Source: Streptomyces oryzae (GTDB taxonomy: Bacteria; Actinomycetota; Actinomycetes; Streptomycetales; Streptomycetaceae). Taken from it: DNA of 64,000 bases. The stretch is taken from assembly GCF_017676365.1 (NCBI RefSeq), contig NZ_JADKMA010000006.1, positions 1 through 64,000 on the forward strand. Direction: 5' to 3'. Position 1 is the first letter of the stretch, and each line of letters opens with the position of its first letter. The notes beneath the pieces are model-generated. The model had not been told where the DNA came from. It saw only the letters and a list, made by a program, of their open reading frames with translations, and did no database searches. The position numbers and the translations under genes were made by a program. Of this stretch, positions 42,880-56,640 are shown in pieces.

Positions 42880-44116
42880 CCCGCTTGTCCGCGGGACGGA
42901 ACTGTGCCACCGCTGTGCTGCGGATACGCGGGCCACTGGGTGACGTCTCGCATGGCAGAGGCTCGCGGACGTCGCCGACGCACCGTGACTTCACCAGGTC
43001 GGCCAAAGACGGTGGCTGGGTGCCCAGCAGGTCGCGGAGGAGGGGAAGGGAGGCCCCGACGATCTGCAGAGCCAGGCAAACGCCAGCGCCACGACGAGGA
43101 AGGGGTTGGCCAAGGTGCCGGGTCGGATCCGGGAGCCGAGCCCGATGCCGAGCTGAGTGGCGCCCAATACCAGGAAGATCAGAGATTGGGGCGGCCGAGG
43201 ACCGAGGTTGCGCGGCAGGCGGCGGACGCCATCGCCACGCCGATGTCTGCCCGGCGCAGAACTGGTCCGTTGACGCCGTCACCGGTCATGGCCACCACAT
43301 GCCCGGCCCGTTGGTGGGACTGGACGGTGTCGATTTTCTACTCAGGGGCCGCACGAGCGAAACACCCGCACCGCCGTCGGGTCTCCCACCGTTCCGGCCC
43401 GCAGCTGTGCTCCTGTCACCGCCCGCCCCGGCTGCGGCGATACCGAGCTGACGGGCGACGGCTTCGGCCGTCAGCGGATGATCACCTGTGACGAGCACGG
43501 GCGTGACGCCTGCGGCCCGACGGGCTGCGATCGTTTCGGTGGCCGCCGGCCGCGGTGGGGCGAGGATCGCGACGAGCCCGAGCAGCGCCGGCCCGCGCTC
43601 CCAGCCCTGTGCTGCTTCCGCTCCCCTGTCACCTGCGGATACGGCGAGCACTCGGTAGCCCTCCGAGGCCCATTCCTGTGCGCGCTTCAGCGTCTCGCCG
43701 CGCCGGGCTGCGTCGTCCGGAGTGATGAGGTCTGACTGCAGCACGGCTTCGGGCGCGCCCTTGCAGATGACGCCAAAGCTGTCCTGGTCGCTACGGTGCA
43801 CCGTGGTCATTCGCTTGCGCTCGCTGCTGAAGGGGATCTCATCCACGCGCGGCGTGAGCTCGCCCGGTTCCGCAGGCCAGCCGACGTTGCAGAGGAGTGC
43901 GCCTGGCGCGGCGCCAGCAGGGTTGCGATCCGGCCCGACGACGTCTCCAGGGACGACATCCGCGGCATTCAGCTCTCGTACGGCGCCGTCTCGCAGCACC
44001 CGGACAATGGGATGACAGGGTGCGCAGGGCCGCGACAGCGCGATCAGCGCGCGGCGGACCAGGACATGTCGCACCGGCCACGGCGGGGACCGGGGTGACA
44101 GATGTGGCCTGGACAC
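42880..44116 (-). pseudogene. P-type cation-transporting ATPase, deleted and frameshifted
   Basis: Consecutive blocks of a P2/P3-type ATPase can be read across frames: IVRVLRDGAVRELNAADVVP and PGDVV (actuator side), LLCNVG, EIPFSSERKRMTTVH (nucleotide-binding domain), GVICKGAPEAVL, VTPVLVTGDHPLTAEAVARQ and, shifted, VVAMTGDGVNDGPVLRRADI, then C-terminal helices near LIFLVLGATQLGIGLG. The TGES and DKTGT phosphorylation motifs are absent: the segment between VVP-GD-VV and ALLCNVG is lost. At least one frameshift follows. Such ATPases are normal DosR-cluster members. Confidence 0.8.
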
Positions 44117-46843: not shown

Positions 46844-47149
46844 TCACAGGCCGTATGTCCTTTCAGGGCGTCCTGGTGTGGTCCGCTCCGCCGTTACTCC
46901 GGTTCCTGCTCTGCCGCCCGCCGCCGTGGCGAAGCAGCGGGAGCGGGGTGCACCAGTGAGTCCGTTCAGGATGCGTGCCGCCTGGATGGTGGATGCGGCC
47001 AGCGTCAGGGAGCTGAGCAGGACGGTCACGCCCGCACCGGGCCCGGCGGTGGAGCGCAGCCCTTGATACAGCGTTCCTCCTGCGAGTACGGCGGTGGTGG
47101 TGAGCGTCCAGAACCAGCGCCGGGCGCGCCGCAGGGCGGTGGTCTCCAT
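46844..47149 (-). CDS. small two-helix membrane protein, cytochrome-b operon (101 aa)
   Basis: Begins METTALRRARRWFWTLTTTA with a membrane helix TTTAVLAGGTLYQGLRS and a second helix AGVTVLLSSLTLAASTIQA, then a basic tail. Its ATG shares one base with the cytochrome b stop (TGATG), so translation is coupled and it belongs to the cytochrome operon. No family is recognised; it could be a small accessory subunit. Confidence 0.6.
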   Translation of the reverse strand: METTALRRARRWFWTLTTTAVLAGGTLYQGLRSTAGPGAGVTVLLSSLTLAASTIQAARILNGLTGAPRSRCFATAAGGRAGTGVTAERTTPGRPERTYGL

Positions 47150-48230
47150 CAGTGTCCCTTGGGGTTGTTGATCCACACCTGGATGGTGGTCGCGGCGAGG
47201 GCGAGCAGCAGCAAGCCGGCCGCGCCCAGGGCGAGTTTGCGCTCGCGCCACCGCCGCTTCGGGCTGCGGTCGAGGAACGGGACGAGGAAGACCAGCCCGA
47301 AGACGCCCGCGATGACGTAGATGATGGAGGCGACCCCGAACCACTCCTCCATCGGAAAGAACCACCAGAACATCCACAGCGGCCGGGTCACCTCGATCCC
47401 GTCCACCGGGGTCGGGCCGACCACCGGTGGCAGCAGTACCCCCAGGAGCGACAGCAGCCCCAGCAGCACCAGTCCGAGCGCAGCCACCCGCTGCAGGTGG
47501 GCCGTGAACGGCTCGGGGACTTCTTCCTCCGGTACTGGGATCTCGGGATGCGGGGAGATCCGGTGCCGCTTGACCAGCAGGGCGTGCCAGACGAACAGCA
47601 GGAGGATCAGGCCGGGGATGATGACCACGTGCGCGCTGTAAAGGCGCAGGAGGATCGGCACCCGGTCGGTCAGCTCCGATGTGAACCAGGCGCCGGCCCC
47701 GCCGAGCAGTTCGGCGACGTCCAGATTGTGGATCAGCGCCTCGAATCCCTCCTGGTCCCACTTGAGGACGGTGCCGGTGAACACGGCGAGGAAGGTGAGC
47801 AGGAACATCGCCGAGCCCACCACCCAGTTGCCCTCGCGCGGCTTTTTGTACGAGGCATGGAAGAACACCCGCAGCAGGTGCAGCAGAGCGAGGACGAACA
47901 TGGCCTGCGCGGCCCAGTAGTGCAGGCCCCGGGCGAAGCCGCCCAGCCACACGTCGGTGACCAGATCGCGTACCGACTGGTTGGCATCCTCCGGAACGGG
48001 TGCGTAGAACTGCGCAACGTAGACCCCGGTGACCAGCAGGATCACGAAGGCCACGGCTGTCAGGCCGCCCAGACTCCAGGTGAGGTTGTTCGCGTGTTCG
48101 GGCCCGGGTAGGCCAGCGCCTTGATACCCATCCGGTCATCCACCGCGTCGATGATCCGCCGCCATCTGCCCGGGTGCCGGGGTGCCGCCGATCCGGGGCC
48201 GACCGACGGTGACGGGTGGCCGGTAGTCAT
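47149..48230 (-). pseudogene. cytochrome b/b6-type subunit split by one frameshift
   Basis: The 5' part (from ATG 48230, GGGGAAG upstream) reads WRRIIDAVDDRMGIKALAYP and loses frame near 48085; the next frame picks up exactly with EHANNLTWSLGGLTAVAFVI and continues to the end. The remaining sequence is a fused b6/subunit IV-type cytochrome: haem-ligand helices GLHYWAAQAMFVLALLHLL and YSAHVVIIPGLILLLFVWH, then several C-terminal helices. Without the single shift it would be an intact ~360-residue protein, so this may be a sequencing error or a recent mutation. No Rieske protein or cytochrome c gene lies beside it. Confidence 0.8.
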
Positions 48231-49026: not shown

Positions 49027-50004
49027 TCAATCGATGTCAAGTACCTCATGCACCGGACGGCGCGGGGTCGCCTGGCCTTGAGGGCCGTATCCGAGGCGGA
49101 GCACCATCTGCACGTACCCCATGGCCGTGGTCGGATCGCGCACCAGCCAGCGCAGGTCAGTCCATTCCAGGGCATGGGATGTAAGTGAGGTGGCCAGCCC
49201 TTCCAGGGTGGCCAACAGCAGGACGCGCTCCATCGCCTGGCCTGCCCGCAGCCAGTCCTCCGGCAGGTCGCCTTCCGTGCCCAGCAGGAACAGGTGAGGC
49301 GTGTGTTCGAAGATGGCGGCATCACGGTCGGCCACAGCGCGCCGGCCGGCGAAATCGCGTACCGGAGCCTTGCCGTCCCACTTGCGGGGACCGAAGGCGT
49401 ATGCGGGGACGCCGTCGGTCGCCGTACCGGTGCCGACACGCGTCCAGCGGGCCAGTTCCGCGGAGCGTTCGGGGTTGAGGGCATCACGCCCCTCCGCGTC
49501 GTGGACCAGTTCCAGCAGCGACTGCACGTGCCATGCTCCGGGGAGGACCAGGTGTGCTCCTTCCTGCTGGGCAGCGTCGTGGAGGTCGGTCTGCACAGCC
49601 GCAGGTATGTCCGTCTCCGCGAACGGATCGCGGCTGGTGTGACGGCGGCGGATGGCGGGATGCAGACGGCCGAGCCCGCTGTCGGGGGGTGTCGGCTCGG
49701 TCAGTCGTATCTTGGCGAGCAGCTCCGGATCCGCAGGGTCGGGCAGCAGTTGGACGGCCGGTTCCCACCCCGCGTGGACAGCGCCGACCCGCAGGTTGAA
49801 CAGGGCCGCGCCACAGCCCAGACGCAGAGCGCGGTTGTTGGGATCTGAGTGCGGCATGGCACGCTCGAGATCCGCGCGTAGCTGAAATGTGCTGCTCCGA
49901 GAGCAGAAGCGGAATCGCCACGGTTGCGCATTGTGCATGGAAGGGGCCGCTGTGGCGTCCTCCACCAGCGCCACCACGGTCCTGGTGTCGAGCCCTATCA
50001 CCAC
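49027..50004 (-). CDS. Acg-family nitroreductase-like protein (325 aa)
   Basis: The fold is a double-domain nitroreductase as in mycobacterial Acg: VVALVEDATAAPSMHNAQPW at the N-terminus, RALRLGCGAALFNLRVGAVH near 60-75, IRRRHTSRDPF near 120, and LEWTDLRWLVRDPTTAMGYV with LRLGYGPQGQATPRR at the C-terminus. Acg proteins bind FMN but their substrates are unclear; they are hallmark members of the mycobacterial DosR regulon. Start GTG 50004 with AAGGGAGG. The truncated copy at 37.7 kb is its paralogue. Confidence 0.9.
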   Translation of the reverse strand: MVIGLDTRTVVALVEDATAAPSMHNAQPWRFRFCSRSSTFQLRADLERAMPHSDPNNRALRLGCGAALFNLRVGAVHAGWEPAVQLLPDPADPELLAKIRLTEPTPPDSGLGRLHPAIRRRHTSRDPFAETDIPAAVQTDLHDAAQQEGAHLVLPGAWHVQSLLELVHDAEGRDALNPERSAELARWTRVGTGTATDGVPAYAFGPRKWDGKAPVRDFAGRRAVADRDAAIFEHTPHLFLLGTEGDLPEDWLRAGQAMERVLLLATLEGLATSLTSHALEWTDLRWLVRDPTTAMGYVQMVLRLGYGPQGQATPRRPVHEVLDID

Positions 50005-50181: not shown

Positions 50182-50460
50182 TCATCCCGGAATCAGGCCC
50201 TCGTCGCTCAGCAGTGCGCGCACCTGAGCGAGGCCCATGTCACCCTCCGGCAGTACGAGTTCCGAGGGTTCCAGGGTCTGGTCGGGCAGCGGCGTTCCGA
50301 GAGTGCGCACAGCGTCCAGCAGGGCCCGCAGCGCGACAGCGAAGCGCTCCTCGTCCTCGGCATCGGCGGCGCGCTGGACCTGAGCGTCGAGCTGGTTGAG
50401 CTTGTCGAGGTGGTCATCGGCGACGGTGTACTGCCCCTCGCCGAGAATCCGCACGATCAT
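50182..50460 (-). CDS. pspAA: PspA-associated protein PspAA (92 aa)
   Basis: Opens MIVRILGEGQYTVADDHLDK, continues with a helical ALRALLDAVRTLGTPLP and ends LALL-like SDEGLIPG, the pattern of the small protein encoded after PspA in actinobacteria. Its ATG overlaps the PspA stop (ATGA), so the two are co-translated. It probably binds PspA and modulates the membrane-stress response. Confidence 0.9.
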   Translation of the reverse strand: MIVRILGEGQYTVADDHLDKLNQLDAQVQRAADAEDEERFAVALRALLDAVRTLGTPLPDQTLEPSELVLPEGDMGLAQVRALLSDEGLIPG

Positions 50461-51239
50461 GACTGGGACTCTCCCTCCGGCGGCTCGGCAGGGCCGTTGC
50501 GGGTGTCCAGGGCAGGTGGGGGCGGGGTACCTGCCGCGGTGAGCTGGGCCTTCATCCGGGACAGGTCCGCCTCGATGTCGTGCCCTTCGGTGGCGGTGTC
50601 CAGTTCGGCCTGGATATCGTCCCGGGCGACAGGGAGAGTGGAGTCCTCCAGCGCGCCGGAGGAGATCAGCTCGTCGAGTGCGCCGGCGCGGGCTTCCATC
50701 TGCTGGGTCTTGTCCTGGGCACGCTGCATGGCCATGCCTACATCGCCCATCTCCTCCGAGACGCCGGTGACTGCTTCCCCGATGCGGGTCCGGGCCTCGG
50801 CGGCGGTGTAGCCGGCCTTGAGCGTCTCCTTACGGGTACGGAACGCGTCCACCTTCGCCTGCAGCCGCTCCGAGGCCAAGGTGAGCTTCTCCTCCTCGGC
50901 CTGCAACGATGCTTCCTGTTCGTGCAGTTCGCTGACCTGCGAACTCACCGCCGTGCGCCGGGACAAAGCCTCCCGGGCCAGGTCCTCCCGCCCGGCCGCC
51001 AGCGCCTGCTGCGCCTGCCCTTCCAGCTTCACTGCGGACTGGTCGAGCTGAGTGATCTGAAGGGCGACACGCTTACGGCTGGTCGCCACGTCCGCCACTC
51101 CGCGCCTCACCTTCTGCAACAGGTCCCGTTGCTTCTCGTACGAGTAGTCCAGCAGCTCACGCGGATCCTCCGCACGGCCCAGTGCATTGCCCACCTTGAT
51201 TCTGAACAGGTCGGCGATGCGGCGGGTGATGCTTGTCAT
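50457..51239 (-). CDS. PspA/IM30 family membrane-stress protein (260 aa)
   Basis: An almost entirely helical protein: N-terminal amphipathic helix (SITRRIADLFRIKVGNALGR), EDPRELLDYSYEKQRDLLQK, VRRGVADVATSRKRVALQ and long heptad-like stretches (QLDQSAVKLEGQAQQALA, EEEKLTLASERLQAKVDAFR). PspA/Vipp1 proteins polymerise on stressed membranes. Start ATG 51239 follows GAGGCGGAG; the in-frame extension upstream is a separate membrane segment. It is followed by PspAA in an ATGA overlap. A C-terminal tail rich in Pro and Glu is less conserved. Confidence 0.92.
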   Translation of the reverse strand: MTSITRRIADLFRIKVGNALGRAEDPRELLDYSYEKQRDLLQKVRRGVADVATSRKRVALQITQLDQSAVKLEGQAQQALAAGREDLAREALSRRTAVSSQVSELHEQEASLQAEEEKLTLASERLQAKVDAFRTRKETLKAGYTAAEARTRIGEAVTGVSEEMGDVGMAMQRAQDKTQQMEARAGALDELISSGALEDSTLPVARDDIQAELDTATEGHDIEADLSRMKAQLTAAGTPPPPALDTRNGPAEPPEGESQS

Positions 51240-51329
51240 CGTGCTCCGCCTCCTCTTCCAGTGAGCTCCGCGACGGCCCCGGACGTCGCGCGGCGGCGTC
51301 CGAGGCCTCTGGTCTCTTGAGCCATCACC

Positions 51330-51553
51330 GCTGCTCTTGCCGCGCATCATCAGCGCCATCATGACGGTGCAGGCGATCACCACGACCAGCACGCCGACGC
51401 CGATGACTCCGGTGGCGCCAGGACGATGGCGACGACCAGGACCGGGACGCAGCAGGCGATCACCATCCAGCCGCGGCCACTGCCCCTGCCGCCTCCAGGC
51501 TCACGCGCAGAGCCGGGCCTGCGAGGGATACGAGGATCGTCTGGCGAGGTCAT
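51330..51553 (-). pseudogene. small membrane protein, single frameshift
   Basis: From ATG 51553 (TSPDDPRIPRRPGSAREPGG), a helix starts WMVIACCVPVLVVAIVLA; a one-base shift near 51425 moves into ATGVIGVGVLVVVIACTVMM, giving the expected two-helix DUF2933-like membrane protein. After the shift no stop occurs before pspA, which shares that frame, so the native stop is not evident. Either a sequencing error or a decayed gene. Confidence 0.5.
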
Positions 51554-51616: not shown

Positions 51617-51904
51617 TCACGTCCAGTGTGGAGGTGTCGCACAGAGTGTGGACAGGCGTCTCCGGTACTCCTCCTCGTCGATCTCACCTAGGGCGAACCG
51701 CAGCAGCTGCTCGGGCGTGGGTCCGGGGGAAGGGTGGGCATGGGGTTGAGGTTGCGGCCGTTCACTGTCGCCGGAATGGGAACGCGCCACGGCGCGGAAG
51801 ATCAGAGCTCCGATGCCGATGACCAGCGCCCAGAAGACAATCATGCTGGCCGACATCGCGAACCAGCCCCACCCACCGATGCCGTGGCCGTACCAGAACA
51901 TCAT
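51617..51904 (-). CDS. SHOCT-domain small membrane protein (95 aa)
   Basis: One membrane helix (SASMIVFWALVIGIGALIFR) after a Trp/Gly/His-rich start (FWYGHGIGGWGWF), then a proline- and histidine-rich linker and a C-terminal SHOCT motif: TPEQLLRFALGEIDEEEYRR. SHOCT sequences act as short oligomerisation helices. The gene is between the PspA genes and the copper ATPase and may serve in envelope stress. Bases 51905-52280 hold no gene. Confidence 0.75.
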   Translation of the reverse strand: MMFWYGHGIGGWGWFAMSASMIVFWALVIGIGALIFRAVARSHSGDSERPQPQPHAHPSPGPTPEQLLRFALGEIDEEEYRRRLSTLCATPPHWT

Positions 51905-52280: not shown

Positions 52281-54878
52281 TCATCGGGATTCGCCTCTCT
52301 CGTGCTCGCTCCCGGCCGGTCTGTCGGCCCGGGCGCGGCCGGCGCCGGACTCGACCCGGGGCTGGACGCTCGCGGGCTGGGCATCAGGCAGCAGCCGGGT
52401 GTGCCAGCGGCGCAGCCGGGACGCGTTGGTGACGACCGACAGCGAACTGAGCGCCATGGCTGCAGCGGCAAAGATCGGGCTGAGCCGGAGACCCCACAGC
52501 GGGTACAGGGCGCCCGCGGCGAGGGGGACGCCGACGGCGTTGTAGACCAGGGCGAAGAACAGGTTCTGCCGGATGTTGCGCATGGTGGCCCGCGACAGTC
52601 GGATCGCCGTGACCACGCCGCTCAGCGAGCCGGAGATGAGGGTGATGTCGGCTGCTTCGATGGCGACGTCGGTACCGGTACCGATGGCCAGCCCGATGTC
52701 CGCGGCGGCCAGGGCGGGGGCGTCGTTGATGCCGTCACCGACCATGCCGACCGTGCGGCCCTCGTTCTGCAGGCGGTGGATCTCTTCGGCCTTGTGCTCG
52801 GGCAGCACCTCGGCCAGGGCCCGGTCCACGCCCACCTGGGCGGCGATGGCGGCGGCGGTGCGGGCGTTGTCGCCGGTGATGATGATGACGTCGATGCCGA
52901 GGAGCTTGAGGGCGGCGATGGCGGCGACGGATTCGTCCTTGACGGTATCGGCGACCGCCAGCACGCCGGCGGGACGTCCGTCGAAGGCCGCGAGCACGGG
53001 GGTCTTGCCCTCAGCCGAGTACGCGGCCGCCACGGGGACGAGTGCGGTGGTGTCGATGCCGGAGTCGTCGAGGAGCCGGACCGTGCCGACCAGGACGGAG
53101 TGTCCGTCGACGGTGGCCTGGACGCCCTTGCCGGTGACCGAGTCGAATCCGGTCGCGGCGTGCGGGTGAAGGCCGCGGTCGCGGACAGCGGTGACGATGG
53201 CCTGGGCAAGGGGGTGTTCGCTGTCAGCCTCGGCCGCGGCCACCAGCCGCAGGAGTTCGGTGTCGTCGAACTCAGCGGCGGTGTGGACGTCGGTCAGGAC
53301 GGGCTTGCCCTCGGTGACGGTGCCGGTCTTGTCCAGGACCACGGTGTCCAGCTTGTGCGCGGTCTCCAGGGCTTCGGCGGAGCGGATCAGGATGCCGGCC
53401 TGGGCACCCTTGCCGGTGGCGACCATCACCGACAGCGGAGTGGCGAGTCCGAGCGCGCACGGGCAGGCGATGATCAACACCGCGACCGCGGAAACCAGTG
53501 CCAGGGTCAGTGCGGGCGCCGGCCCAAGGGCGAACCAGACGGCGAAGGCGCCGATCGCGATGGCGATCACTGCGGGCACGAAGTACGCCGAGACGGCGTC
53601 GGCGAGCCGCTGGATGGGGGCCTTGGACGCCTGGGCCTGCTGAACGAGTCGGATGATCTGGGCGAGCACCGTGTCGGCGCCGACTTTGGCCGCCCGTACC
53701 CGCAGGGACCCGGTGCCATTGACAGTGGCGCCGATGACAGTGTCCCCCGTGCGCTTGGTGACAGGCATCGGCTCGCCGGTGACCATCGACTCGTCGACCG
53801 CGGACGAACCCGAGACAACCCCGGCGTCGACGGGGATCTTCTCCCCAGGCCGGATGACGATCTCGTCGCCGACCACGACCTCGTCCACAGGGACCTCCAT
53901 CTCGGCACCCTCACGCACCACACGGGCGGTGCGTGCCCGCAGGCCCAGCAGGGCGCGGATCGCCTCGCCGGTGCCGGCCTTCGCCCGGGCCTCCAGCAGC
54001 CGCCCGAGCAGGATCAGGGTGAGGATGACGCCGACGGCTTCGAAGTAGACCTCGCGTACGTCTTCCGGCAGCAGGCCGGGAGCGAGGGTGACCAGCAGGC
54101 TGTAGCCGTAGGCGGCACTCGTACCCAGTGTGATCAGGGAATTCATGTCCGCGGCCCGGTGGCGCAAAGTCAGCCAGCCCGTCACATGGATCGGCCACCC
54201 GGCGTAGAACATCACCGGCGTGATCAGCGCCAGCTGGAACCAGTGGTTCAGCATCCAGCCGGGCACCCAGTCCGCGCCGAACAGTTCGTGCGCCATCACG
54301 GCGAACAGCACGGGGAAGGTGAGCACCGCGCCCGTCAGCACCCTGCGGCCGAGGTCCTTGATCTCCGCCATCCGCTCAGCGACGTCGGCGGCTTCCGCCT
54401 CGGCCGCCGTCCGTTCCTCACCCGCCGACGGCGCCCCACCGACCACAGAAGGAAAGACGGCCGAAGCGCCGTCGCCGTCCTGGGCGGGCGGTGCGGTGCC
54501 TTCCGCGGGTTCGACCAGCAGCGTGCCGTGGATCATGTTCATACCGCAGGCGAAGCCGAAGGAGCCTGGACGGTCAGGGTTCAGCCGGACGGTTGTGCGG
54601 GTATGCGCGGGCAGACCCGCACCGACCTTGAGAGCGGGGAAGACCACGCGGGAGGTGCACTCGCCGGCCTCCTTCCGGTCGAAGACCAGTTCCACCGGCG
54701 TGCCCTGGCGGACCTTGATCACGTCCGGGCTGTATCCGCCCCGTACCGTCACCTCCACCCGCTGTACGCCGCCTTCCAGCCGGGCGGCACCGGCCCGGCG
54801 CGGTCCGAAGAAGTACCGGCCCAGCACGGCGACCAGCACGGCCGACGCCAGGATCACGACGACGTCAACGGCACCCAT
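52281..54878 (-). CDS. copper-translocating P1B-type ATPase with N-terminal cupredoxin domain (865 aa)
   Basis: The protein begins with a membrane anchor ([19 protein letters not shown]), followed by a cupredoxin-like domain (about 35-125: [20 protein letters not shown], and the Cys/Met/His-bearing [16 protein letters not shown]). After a charged linker comes a complete P1B ATPase: [14 protein letters not shown], the metal-channel motif [12 protein letters not shown] near 470, the phosphorylation site [15 protein letters not shown] near 515, the [10 protein letters not shown] histidine motif, [15 protein letters not shown] and [21 protein letters not shown] in the transmembrane helix fits copper export. 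The canonical HMA N-terminal domain (GMTCxxC) is absent. Confidence 0.92.
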
Positions 54879-55319
54879 GAGCTTCTCGCCTCCCTTGGCG
54901 GGTCACTCTCCGGCCTGTGCCCGGGTACCCGGCTGGGTGGAGGCTGAACGGCCCGCTGGCCCTGGACCATCCGGCCCCAGACCGGCTTGCCGATCGGTGG
55001 GGTTACCACGCCCGGCCGCAGACCACAGCAGACACGACGATGAACCAAGGAAGACGGGGGCCTGTGCATCACGGAAGCGCACGGCGGGACAGGACGCCCC
55101 CCGACGTGAGGGGCGATCTCCGAGGAGGTGATCACCTCCATTGAGCCACCTAAGCAGCCGAACACACGTACGGGATGCCTGCCGGAGAGCCGACAGGAAC
55201 GGCCCGGCACAGGCCGCCCGAGGACGAGCGGCAAGCCGCCCGTCGCCGTCAGCAGCACCTGCCGTTCTGGCGCGGACCCAAAGGCGGCCCCGCTTCGATC
55301 CAGCGAGAAGAGGCCTTTG
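54879..55319. other. gap without a recognisable gene
   Basis: About 440 bases upstream of the copper ATPase. Frames on both strands are Arg/Pro-rich without domains. The stretch nearest the gene (54880-54920) should hold its promoter; no clear metal-responsive palindrome was identified. Confidence 0.4.
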
Positions 55320-56160
55320 CTATGACCTGACGCTCATCGCCTGCCTCTGGCAGAGGTGTTGAGGTGCCACTACCGTCTCCGCTTTCGCTTGGGGACGCTT
55401 TTCGTGCCGCGCGGTGGCCGCTTGGCGTCCGGGTGGACAGCGCGCTGGAAATCCTCTGCGGGGCGCAAGGACTGCATGCCGGCGCATGGTGCGGCAGCGA
55501 GACGCCCATTGTCGCTGACGATGAGTGGTCGGATGCGCATCGGGTTCTTGCCGGTTGCGAAGGCGTCGATGACGTCCGCAAGAGCGGCCGTGCCAACGTC
55601 GAGGCGGAACCGCTCGACAACGGCTCTGACACGTTCCACGGCGATGCCTGTGTGCCCTGCGATGTCTTCGATGGCGACCGTGGCTGCTCGGCGCCGGGCT
55701 CGAACAAGGACATGAGACTGAACCTGGCGCGTTCCAGCGGCCGGGCGTCCGCCCGGTCCCTGTCCGTAGCAGCCATAGCAATCTGCGCGGCGCCGCCCAC
55801 GGCATTGAGGCGGTCGTTCAGGCCGGCGTGTTGCCGGTGGTGGCATGCGTCGAGGACGGCCAGGGCGTCGGTCGCGTCGAAGCCGAGCTGGGTGTTGAGC
55901 GCCGCGCGGACGCCGGGATTGCCATCCAGGAGCGCCGGATTGGTTTTCTCGACCATCTCCGCGTAGGAGGTTGCGCATCCACAGCTCAGCGCCCCGAATG
56001 AGCAAGGACACAAGCGCAAGCTTGTCGGCCGGGTCAACGGCGGCGAGGGACCGCAGCCGTGCGAGACGAAGGATGTTGCCGGGGGTCGTCCTTCGCCTCC
56101 GAAACGAAGTGGCTCATCTGCTGAAACTCGGCTGCGGGGGTATCGGCCGCCGCTGTCTCA
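55320..56160 (-). pseudogene. unknown protein, frameshifted
   Basis: Reading leftward: AEFQQMSHFVSEAKDDP, then shifted, NILRLARLRSLAAVDPADKL and ALVSLLIRGAELW, shifted again to YAEMVEKTNPALLDGNPGVR and AALNTQLGFDATDALAVLDA, then ATVAIEDIAGHTGIAVERVR and FATGKNPMRIRPLIVSDNG. The blocks read as one helical protein interrupted by at least three frame changes. No family is recognised. A possible helix-turn-helix in IEDIAGHTGIAVERVRAV is only suggestive. Confidence 0.5.
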
Positions 56161-56229
56161 TCCCGGGCGGCGAGAGCAACCAACGCCAGCGCGACCGCGC
56201 CCGTCAGCTGCGCGCGGTCGGGGAGGATA

Positions 56230-56640
56230 TGTCGGTCCCACCTGACCCCGGACGCAACGGGAGCCCGCGAGGCTCACAAATGCGCACAGGCACGATGAGG
56301 TCCCAGGGCAGCAGACCTGGTGACGTGGCCGGCGACAAGGCGTACTCCTCTCGCGCCAACCGCGCCCACCTGCCGAGACGGAAGATCAAGGCTGTGGTCC
56401 CAGACAAGGCGGATCAGGCGGCCAACCAGACGAAGAAGGGCGAGGGGCGGGCATCCGGTTTCGCACGACGCCGAGTTGTACAAGAAGCGCAACGCCGGGG
56501 AGCGGTGCATCAACAAGACCAAGGACTGGAGGCGGCCGGCCATGCGTTTCGACATAGGCCCGACAGCTACATGGCGGAGCTTGAGCTGCGCGGCGCATTC
56601 ATCTGATTGCGCAGCCTCCACCGACGAACGAGATATCTCA
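56230..56640 (+). pseudogene. IS5-family transposase fragment
   Basis: One frame gives DVAGDKAYSSRANRAHLPRR and KIKAVVPDKADQAANQTKKG, and another ELYKKRNAGERCINKTKDWR and RPAMRFDIGPTATWRSLSC. These match the third strand of the DDE core, the lysine-rich loop and the catalytic glutamate helix (NTVERCINRIKEWRG) of IS5-group transposases. The N-terminal half is lost and the frame shifts near 56455. Confidence 0.75.

Follow-up and report, generated by a model that had tools for sequence, protein, structure and literature searches.

The gene at 52281-54878 of the window (the whole 64,000-nucleotide stretch of Streptomyces oryzae DNA analysed here) raises the question of what a membrane-anchored cupredoxin domain does at the head of a copper ATPase, and on which side of the membrane it does it. 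The answer that we favour, with a probability of roughly 0.85, is that the product is a Cu(I)-exporting P1B-1 ATPase which carries, in place of its HMA domain, a CupA-like Cu(I) module that is covalently joined to it, anchored in the membrane and situated on the cytosolic side. The computations from which this is drawn concern the architecture of the protein, the fold of the domain, the identity and conservation of its ligands, and its topology. The gene and the parts of its product are as follows:

52281-54878, minus strand: whole gene, a fusion of an anchored cupredoxin to a Cu(I) P1B ATPase, 865 aa (open frame, Pfam, NCBIfam)
54807-54872, minus strand: N-terminal membrane anchor, aa 3-24, then GPRR, positive-inside (hydropathy 2.16, charge counts; a helix in the models)
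54513-54770, minus strand: CupA-like cupredoxin domain, aa 37-122 (PF13473; 2mry/4f2e, E = 3.7e-23; fold match 0.7 Å)
54657-54659, minus strand: Cys74 (CupA numbering), predicted Cu(I) ligand bridging S1 and S2 (alignment to CupA)
54534-54548, minus strand: C111-G-M113-N-M115, predicted Cu(I) ligands, C111 of S1 and M113 with M115 of S2 (alignment to CupA)
54408-54509, minus strand: linker, aa 124-157, flexible and modelled with low confidence (aa 128-156 under pLDDT 50)
52404-54407, minus strand: P1B-type Cu(I) ATPase core, aa 158-825, with 8 membrane helices (3rfu, E = 4.8e-198; fold; TIGR01511)
53772-53780, minus strand: TGE motif of the A-domain, aa 367-369 (motif, homologue alignment)
53457-53465, minus strand: CPC membrane metal site, aa 472-474 (invariant in the homologue alignment)
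53319-53333, minus strand: DKTGT phosphorylation motif, aa 516-520 (motif, homologue alignment)
52539-52544, minus strand: YN, one element of the Cu+ P1B-1 signature, aa 779-780 (invariant in the homologue alignment)

The open frame is intact from its ATG at 54878 to a stop at 52281, and a GGAGG ribosome-binding site lies immediately 5' of the ATG; the sequence-only reading had the coordinates exactly right and left the minus strand unstated. An 881-aa frame on the plus strand over the same interval has no support and was taken to be a high-GC shadow frame. Chance or a frame artefact is excluded by the match of the cupredoxin domain to solved CupA and by 77 of the 80 closest relatives having the fusion as an open frame. 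In the protein, Pfam recognises Cupredoxin_1 (PF13473) at aa 37-122 with 54.8 bits (cut-off 27), E1-E2_ATPase at aa 313-493 and Hydrolase at aa 511-727, NCBIfam assigns TIGR01511, copper-translocating P-type ATPase, with 612 bits, and the HMA domain (PF00403) has no Pfam match anywhere in the 865 residues. The arrangement first read from the letters, an N-terminal anchor and a cupredoxin-like domain standing in place of HMA before an otherwise ordinary P1B ATPase, is thus confirmed, as is the 12-residue cupredoxin motif noted there, which occupies aa 107-118.

The pump itself has the full motif set. Its core, which is closest to Legionella CopA (LpCopA, 3rfu), aligns to it over aa 157-824, and solved Cu ATPases rank at the top of a fold search made with it. 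The catalytic DKTGT (aa 516), TGE (aa 367) and GDGxND (aa 714) motifs are present and are conserved in 32 homologues, and the residues of the Cu+ signature, C472-P-C474, Y779-N780 and M808/S811/S812, are all invariant in the same set. By these motifs and by the family model the protein is classed as a P1B-1 Cu(I)-exporting ATPase. The full-length model is of moderate confidence (mean pLDDT 72, pTM 0.57), which is too low for the docking of the domains to be read from it.

A search of the PDB with the first 131 residues returned only two distinct sequences with significance, both from S. pneumoniae: CupA (4f2e, also 2mry; E = 3.7e-23, 85 bits, 42% identity) and the N-terminal metal-binding domain of CopA (4f2f; E = 1.4e-10, 45 bits, 28% identity). 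The same two proteins are the top fold matches of the domain model (mean pLDDT 81.5), with rmsd values of 0.7 Å for CupA and 0.8 Å for CopA over 93 columns. By score, then, the domain resembles the chaperone CupA more than it does the pump's own domain in pneumococcus. In CupA two Cu(I) sites have been described, S1 formed by C74 and C111 and S2 formed by C74, M113 and M115 (PMC5646241); the fusion protein has all four ligands at identical residue numbers. They are invariant in the 32 aligned fused homologues and in five split relatives too; of 502 relatives of the domain, the best 80 all retain these ligands, and in 79 of the 80 the anchor is clear. It had been asked whether homologues might show that the domain does not bind metal; what they turn out to be is solved Cu(I)-binding proteins with identical ligands. 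The domain is accordingly not to be read as a blue-copper (type 1) electron-transfer domain, a candidate that was rejected because the aligned positions at the copper site match the CupA ligands (C74, CxMxM) and not two histidines. From the alignment it is predicted to bind Cu(I).

Four helices lie between the cupredoxin and the A-domain (MA, MB, M1 and M2, at about aa 180-202, 207-229, 245-266 and 276-298); the second has a weak hydropathy (0.62) and was assigned by P1B homology and from helices in the models. Since four helices separate the cupredoxin from the TGE-bearing A-domain (aa 367), both must be on the cytosolic side. Consistent with this, R27 and R28 come after the anchor, and over 32 homologues the mean net charge is +2.0 in the 12 residues after the anchor, compared to -1.0 in the first six residues. 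CupA offers a precedent, being anchored in the same manner and handing Cu(I), as a chaperone, to CopA, which exports it (PMC5646241, PMC7558416). From the helix count, the charge after the anchor and this analogy, the domain almost certainly faces the cytosol.

The idea of a cupredoxin on a copper pump is not new, since a cupredoxin domain replacing HMA on a Cu ATPase has been described for S. pneumoniae CopA (PMC7558416); the domain had been called unusual at first sight, and while its presence in the place of HMA is real, its kind was already known. Like the fusion, pneumococcal CopA is a Cu(I) pump of the P1B class in which a cupredoxin-type domain takes the place of HMA, with the same four ligands and the same fold, but its domain is only 28% identical to that of the fusion, which is more CupA-like, and the fusion carries an N-terminal anchor in the same chain. 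Judging by its length, pneumococcal CopA probably has no such N-terminal anchor. Pneumococcus, unlike the fusion, has a separate CupA besides CopA. CupA for its part shares with the fusion a single N-terminal anchor before the cupredoxin, together with the S1/S2 ligands; it is a separate small protein, however, whereas here the module is joined to the pump in one frame. The HMA-type CopA proteins (LpCopA 3rfu, AfCopA 3j09) have the same ATPase core, membrane CPC site and eight helices, but the fusion is without their CxxC ferredoxin-fold HMA domain. PacL1-CtpC of Mycobacterium tuberculosis, a P-type ATPase with a membrane-anchored cytosolic metal-binding partner, offers a likeness in outline, although the metal is zinc, the domain is unrelated and the partner is a separate protein (PMC9374683). 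The fusion joins a pump, a metal-binding domain and a chaperone which are usually met separately, and the literature yielded neither a description of an anchored CupA-like module fused to the pump and common in Actinomycetota nor experimental work on the window protein or on others of the fused kind.

The 502 relatives of the domain came from a scan of GTDB species genomes. A survey of homologues for the same fusion had been proposed from the sequence, and among the best 80 of the 502 the fusion is one open frame in 77; of the other three, one (L110) is cut off by a contig end and two (L116, L122) have their ATPase in a frame that overlaps. Strong matches (E below 1e-40) are present in 14 of 199 Streptomyces genomes, the window's own included, and in 10 of 396 Actinomycetota genomes; the S. 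regalis copy is 95% identical in the cupredoxin domain, and the same fusion is found on plasmids of Streptomyces, Mycolicibacterium and Cryobacterium. The fused family is widespread in Actinomycetota, where its members bear no annotation beyond ‘heavy metal translocating P-type ATPase’. Viral contigs gave two matches to the ATPase core only, neither of which spans the cupredoxin domain.

The same two modules also occur apart. The cyanobacterium Chroococcidiopsis (L141) and Hymenobacter (L142) have an HMA-bearing ATPase gene followed by a separate anchored cupredoxin gene; these split systems differ from the fusion in comprising two genes and in having ATPases that retain HMA. Their ATPase cores are 54-58% identical to that of the window, above the 45% identity between the window core and the HMA-bearing CopA of its own genome. 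The simplest reading of these comparisons would be that a pump and its chaperone, once a pair, were joined into a single protein with loss of HMA, which is the direction of change that we infer. Stand-alone anchored cupredoxins of the CQMGM form also adjoin Cu ATPase genes in other Actinomycetota (L040-L044), as a split counterpart of the fusion, and three further proteins of about 490-500 aa (L047, L048, L049) have two copies of a CGMxM cupredoxin motif with a CACCGGG motif between them.

How might such a protein work? The domain would trap Cu(I) at the two-cysteine site S1 (C74, C111), possibly after first reducing Cu(II), as CupA does in vitro; the Cu(I) would then shift to the methionine site S2 (C74, M113, M115) and be passed across the flexible linker to the entrance of that same molecule's CPC site in the membrane, so that the ATPase would expel Cu(I) received from its own domain. 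The cupredoxin would in this way be a chaperone and a regulatory metal-binding domain in one. Direct intramolecular transfer, or regulation, is what the arrangement suggests, and the route of transfer is uncertain, because in S. pneumoniae CopA mutations near the expected Cu entrance left export unimpaired (PMC7558416).

Alternatively, the domain could be purely regulatory; it would sense cytosolic Cu(I) and relieve autoinhibition of the ATPase without handing copper on. In Cu ATPases the N-terminal domain often has a regulatory role and is not an obligatory donor, and for the bacterial HMA type both regulation and dispensability for loading have been described (PMC9470648). This alternative is nevertheless rather unlikely, as the domain scores 85 bits against the chaperone CupA and 45 bits against the regulatory domain of pneumococcal CopA, and a separate chaperone was not found in searches of the genome. 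Neither a stand-alone CopZ nor a stand-alone CupA appeared in those searches. Besides the fusion, one Cu ATPase of the genome scores highly, and it bears the genome's sole HMA match; the other cupredoxin matches of the genome are a lipoprotein and a large secreted protein. The lipoprotein is one that we take to resemble EfeO. The choice between donor and regulator has been left open for pneumococcal CupA/CopA as well, and the single-chain form is a simple system for asking whether a cupredoxin donates copper directly or only regulates the pump.

The promoter elements came to light through a comparison of upstream regions across the family, and their counterparts in the window are as follows:

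54964-54978, minus strand: second OsdR-like element, GGGGCCGGATGGTCC, at -100, its position conserved in orthologues (upstream comparison)
54940-54955, minus strand: OsdR/DevR-like box, CGGGCCGTTCAGCCTC, at -77, weak, score 9.7 (weight matrix; p about 0.025 against a first-order Markov control)
54927-54943, minus strand: decayed counterpart of the orthologues' CCCCTACCnGGTAGGGG palindrome, a probable CsoR operator (upstream comparison)

Family promoters (upstream regions of L058-L113) combine OsdR/DevR-like boxes at -100 and -77 with CCCCTACCnGGTAGGGG at -66. The weight matrix was built from 25 published OsdR sites, its threshold of 11.2 being the score of the weakest training site (PMC5069765), and it reaches at least 11.2 in 59% of the upstream regions compared to 0.7% of a first-order Markov control and 2.3% of random stretches from the same loci. 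The palindrome lies at about -66 with at most 2 mismatches in 27 of 52 upstream regions, where shuffles lead one to expect none; as the upstream sequences are related, these counts are not independent. Within the window the DevR-like pattern GGGACnnnnnGTCCC and the pattern ATACCCnnnnGGGTAT do no better than chance, nor is the simple GGGnCC-n4-GGnCC pattern by itself enriched across the window. The OsdR paper mentions neither copper, metal nor ATPase. A csoR-like gene lies near 26 of 86 loci searched, often immediately downstream of the ATPase, and the palindrome is a probable CsoR operator. We presume that the S. coelicolor gene SCO0164 may be an orthologue of the fusion gene. SCO0164, a putative cation ATPase, is unexpressed in an SCO2730 mutant (PMC6414726).

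It is possible that the copy in the window is a relic, either in decay or misregulated. Its counterpart of the operator-like palindrome is degenerate, with 6 mismatches; no csoR neighbour was found, the two csoR genes of the genome being on other contigs; and the neighbourhood is rearranged. The rearrangement is seen in a gene for a small SHOCT-type membrane protein (51617-51904, minus strand; Pfam match below cut-off), a frequent neighbour of the fused family which was found by tblastn near the ATPase in 46 of 86 loci searched, often divergent just upstream, and which in the window lies downstream. The relic explanation is improbable all the same, in that the open frame is intact, every catalytic and ligand residue is kept, and the OsdR-like boxes are partly kept. 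The promoter evidence suggests that in Streptomyces the export of copper may be tied to the dormancy response. A fuller account, which we put forward tentatively and think rather doubtful as a whole, is that a built-in tethered chaperone, perhaps a cupric reductase as well, replaced HMA and dispensed with CopZ/CupA, that in Streptomyces it came under the hypoxia/dormancy regulator OsdR (DevR-like) and CsoR, and that in the window the copper arm has apparently been lost and the dormancy arm partly kept.

That the domain is chiefly a cupric reductase making Cu(I) for the pump seems quite improbable: CupA does reduce Cu(II) in vitro via C74 and C111 (PMC5646241), both conserved here, but CupA itself has no known physiological electron donor and a review sees chaperoning as its main role (PMC7558416). 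Least probable, and rejected, is the option raised in the sequence-only reading that the anchor places the cupredoxin outside as a periplasmic-type acceptor of exported copper; classical cupredoxins are mostly extracytoplasmic and an N-terminal hydrophobic segment may serve as a signal anchor, but an odd number of helices between the cupredoxin and the A-domain would be required where four are found here just as in the other P1B pumps, the residues after the anchor are positive, the nearest homologues hand Cu(I) to CopA for export, and the Cu(I) site is of two cysteines and two methionines rather than the two histidines of blue copper.

Around the gene, the interval 55249-56606, upstream of the ATPase, has the look of rearranged debris, perhaps with transposase remnants, and a 213-aa open frame within it has no Pfam match. 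On the other side, 31776-51904 resembles an island of dormancy and redox-stress type, with CBS/BON proteins, universal stress proteins, a PPDK-like enzyme, an Acg-like nitroreductase (49027-50004), a cytochrome b (47149-48054), and PspA (50457-51392) with PspAA (50182-50460). At 43218-44116 on the minus strand lies the broken remnant of another P-type cation ATPase, with Cation_ATPase and Hydrolase matches and an internal stop.
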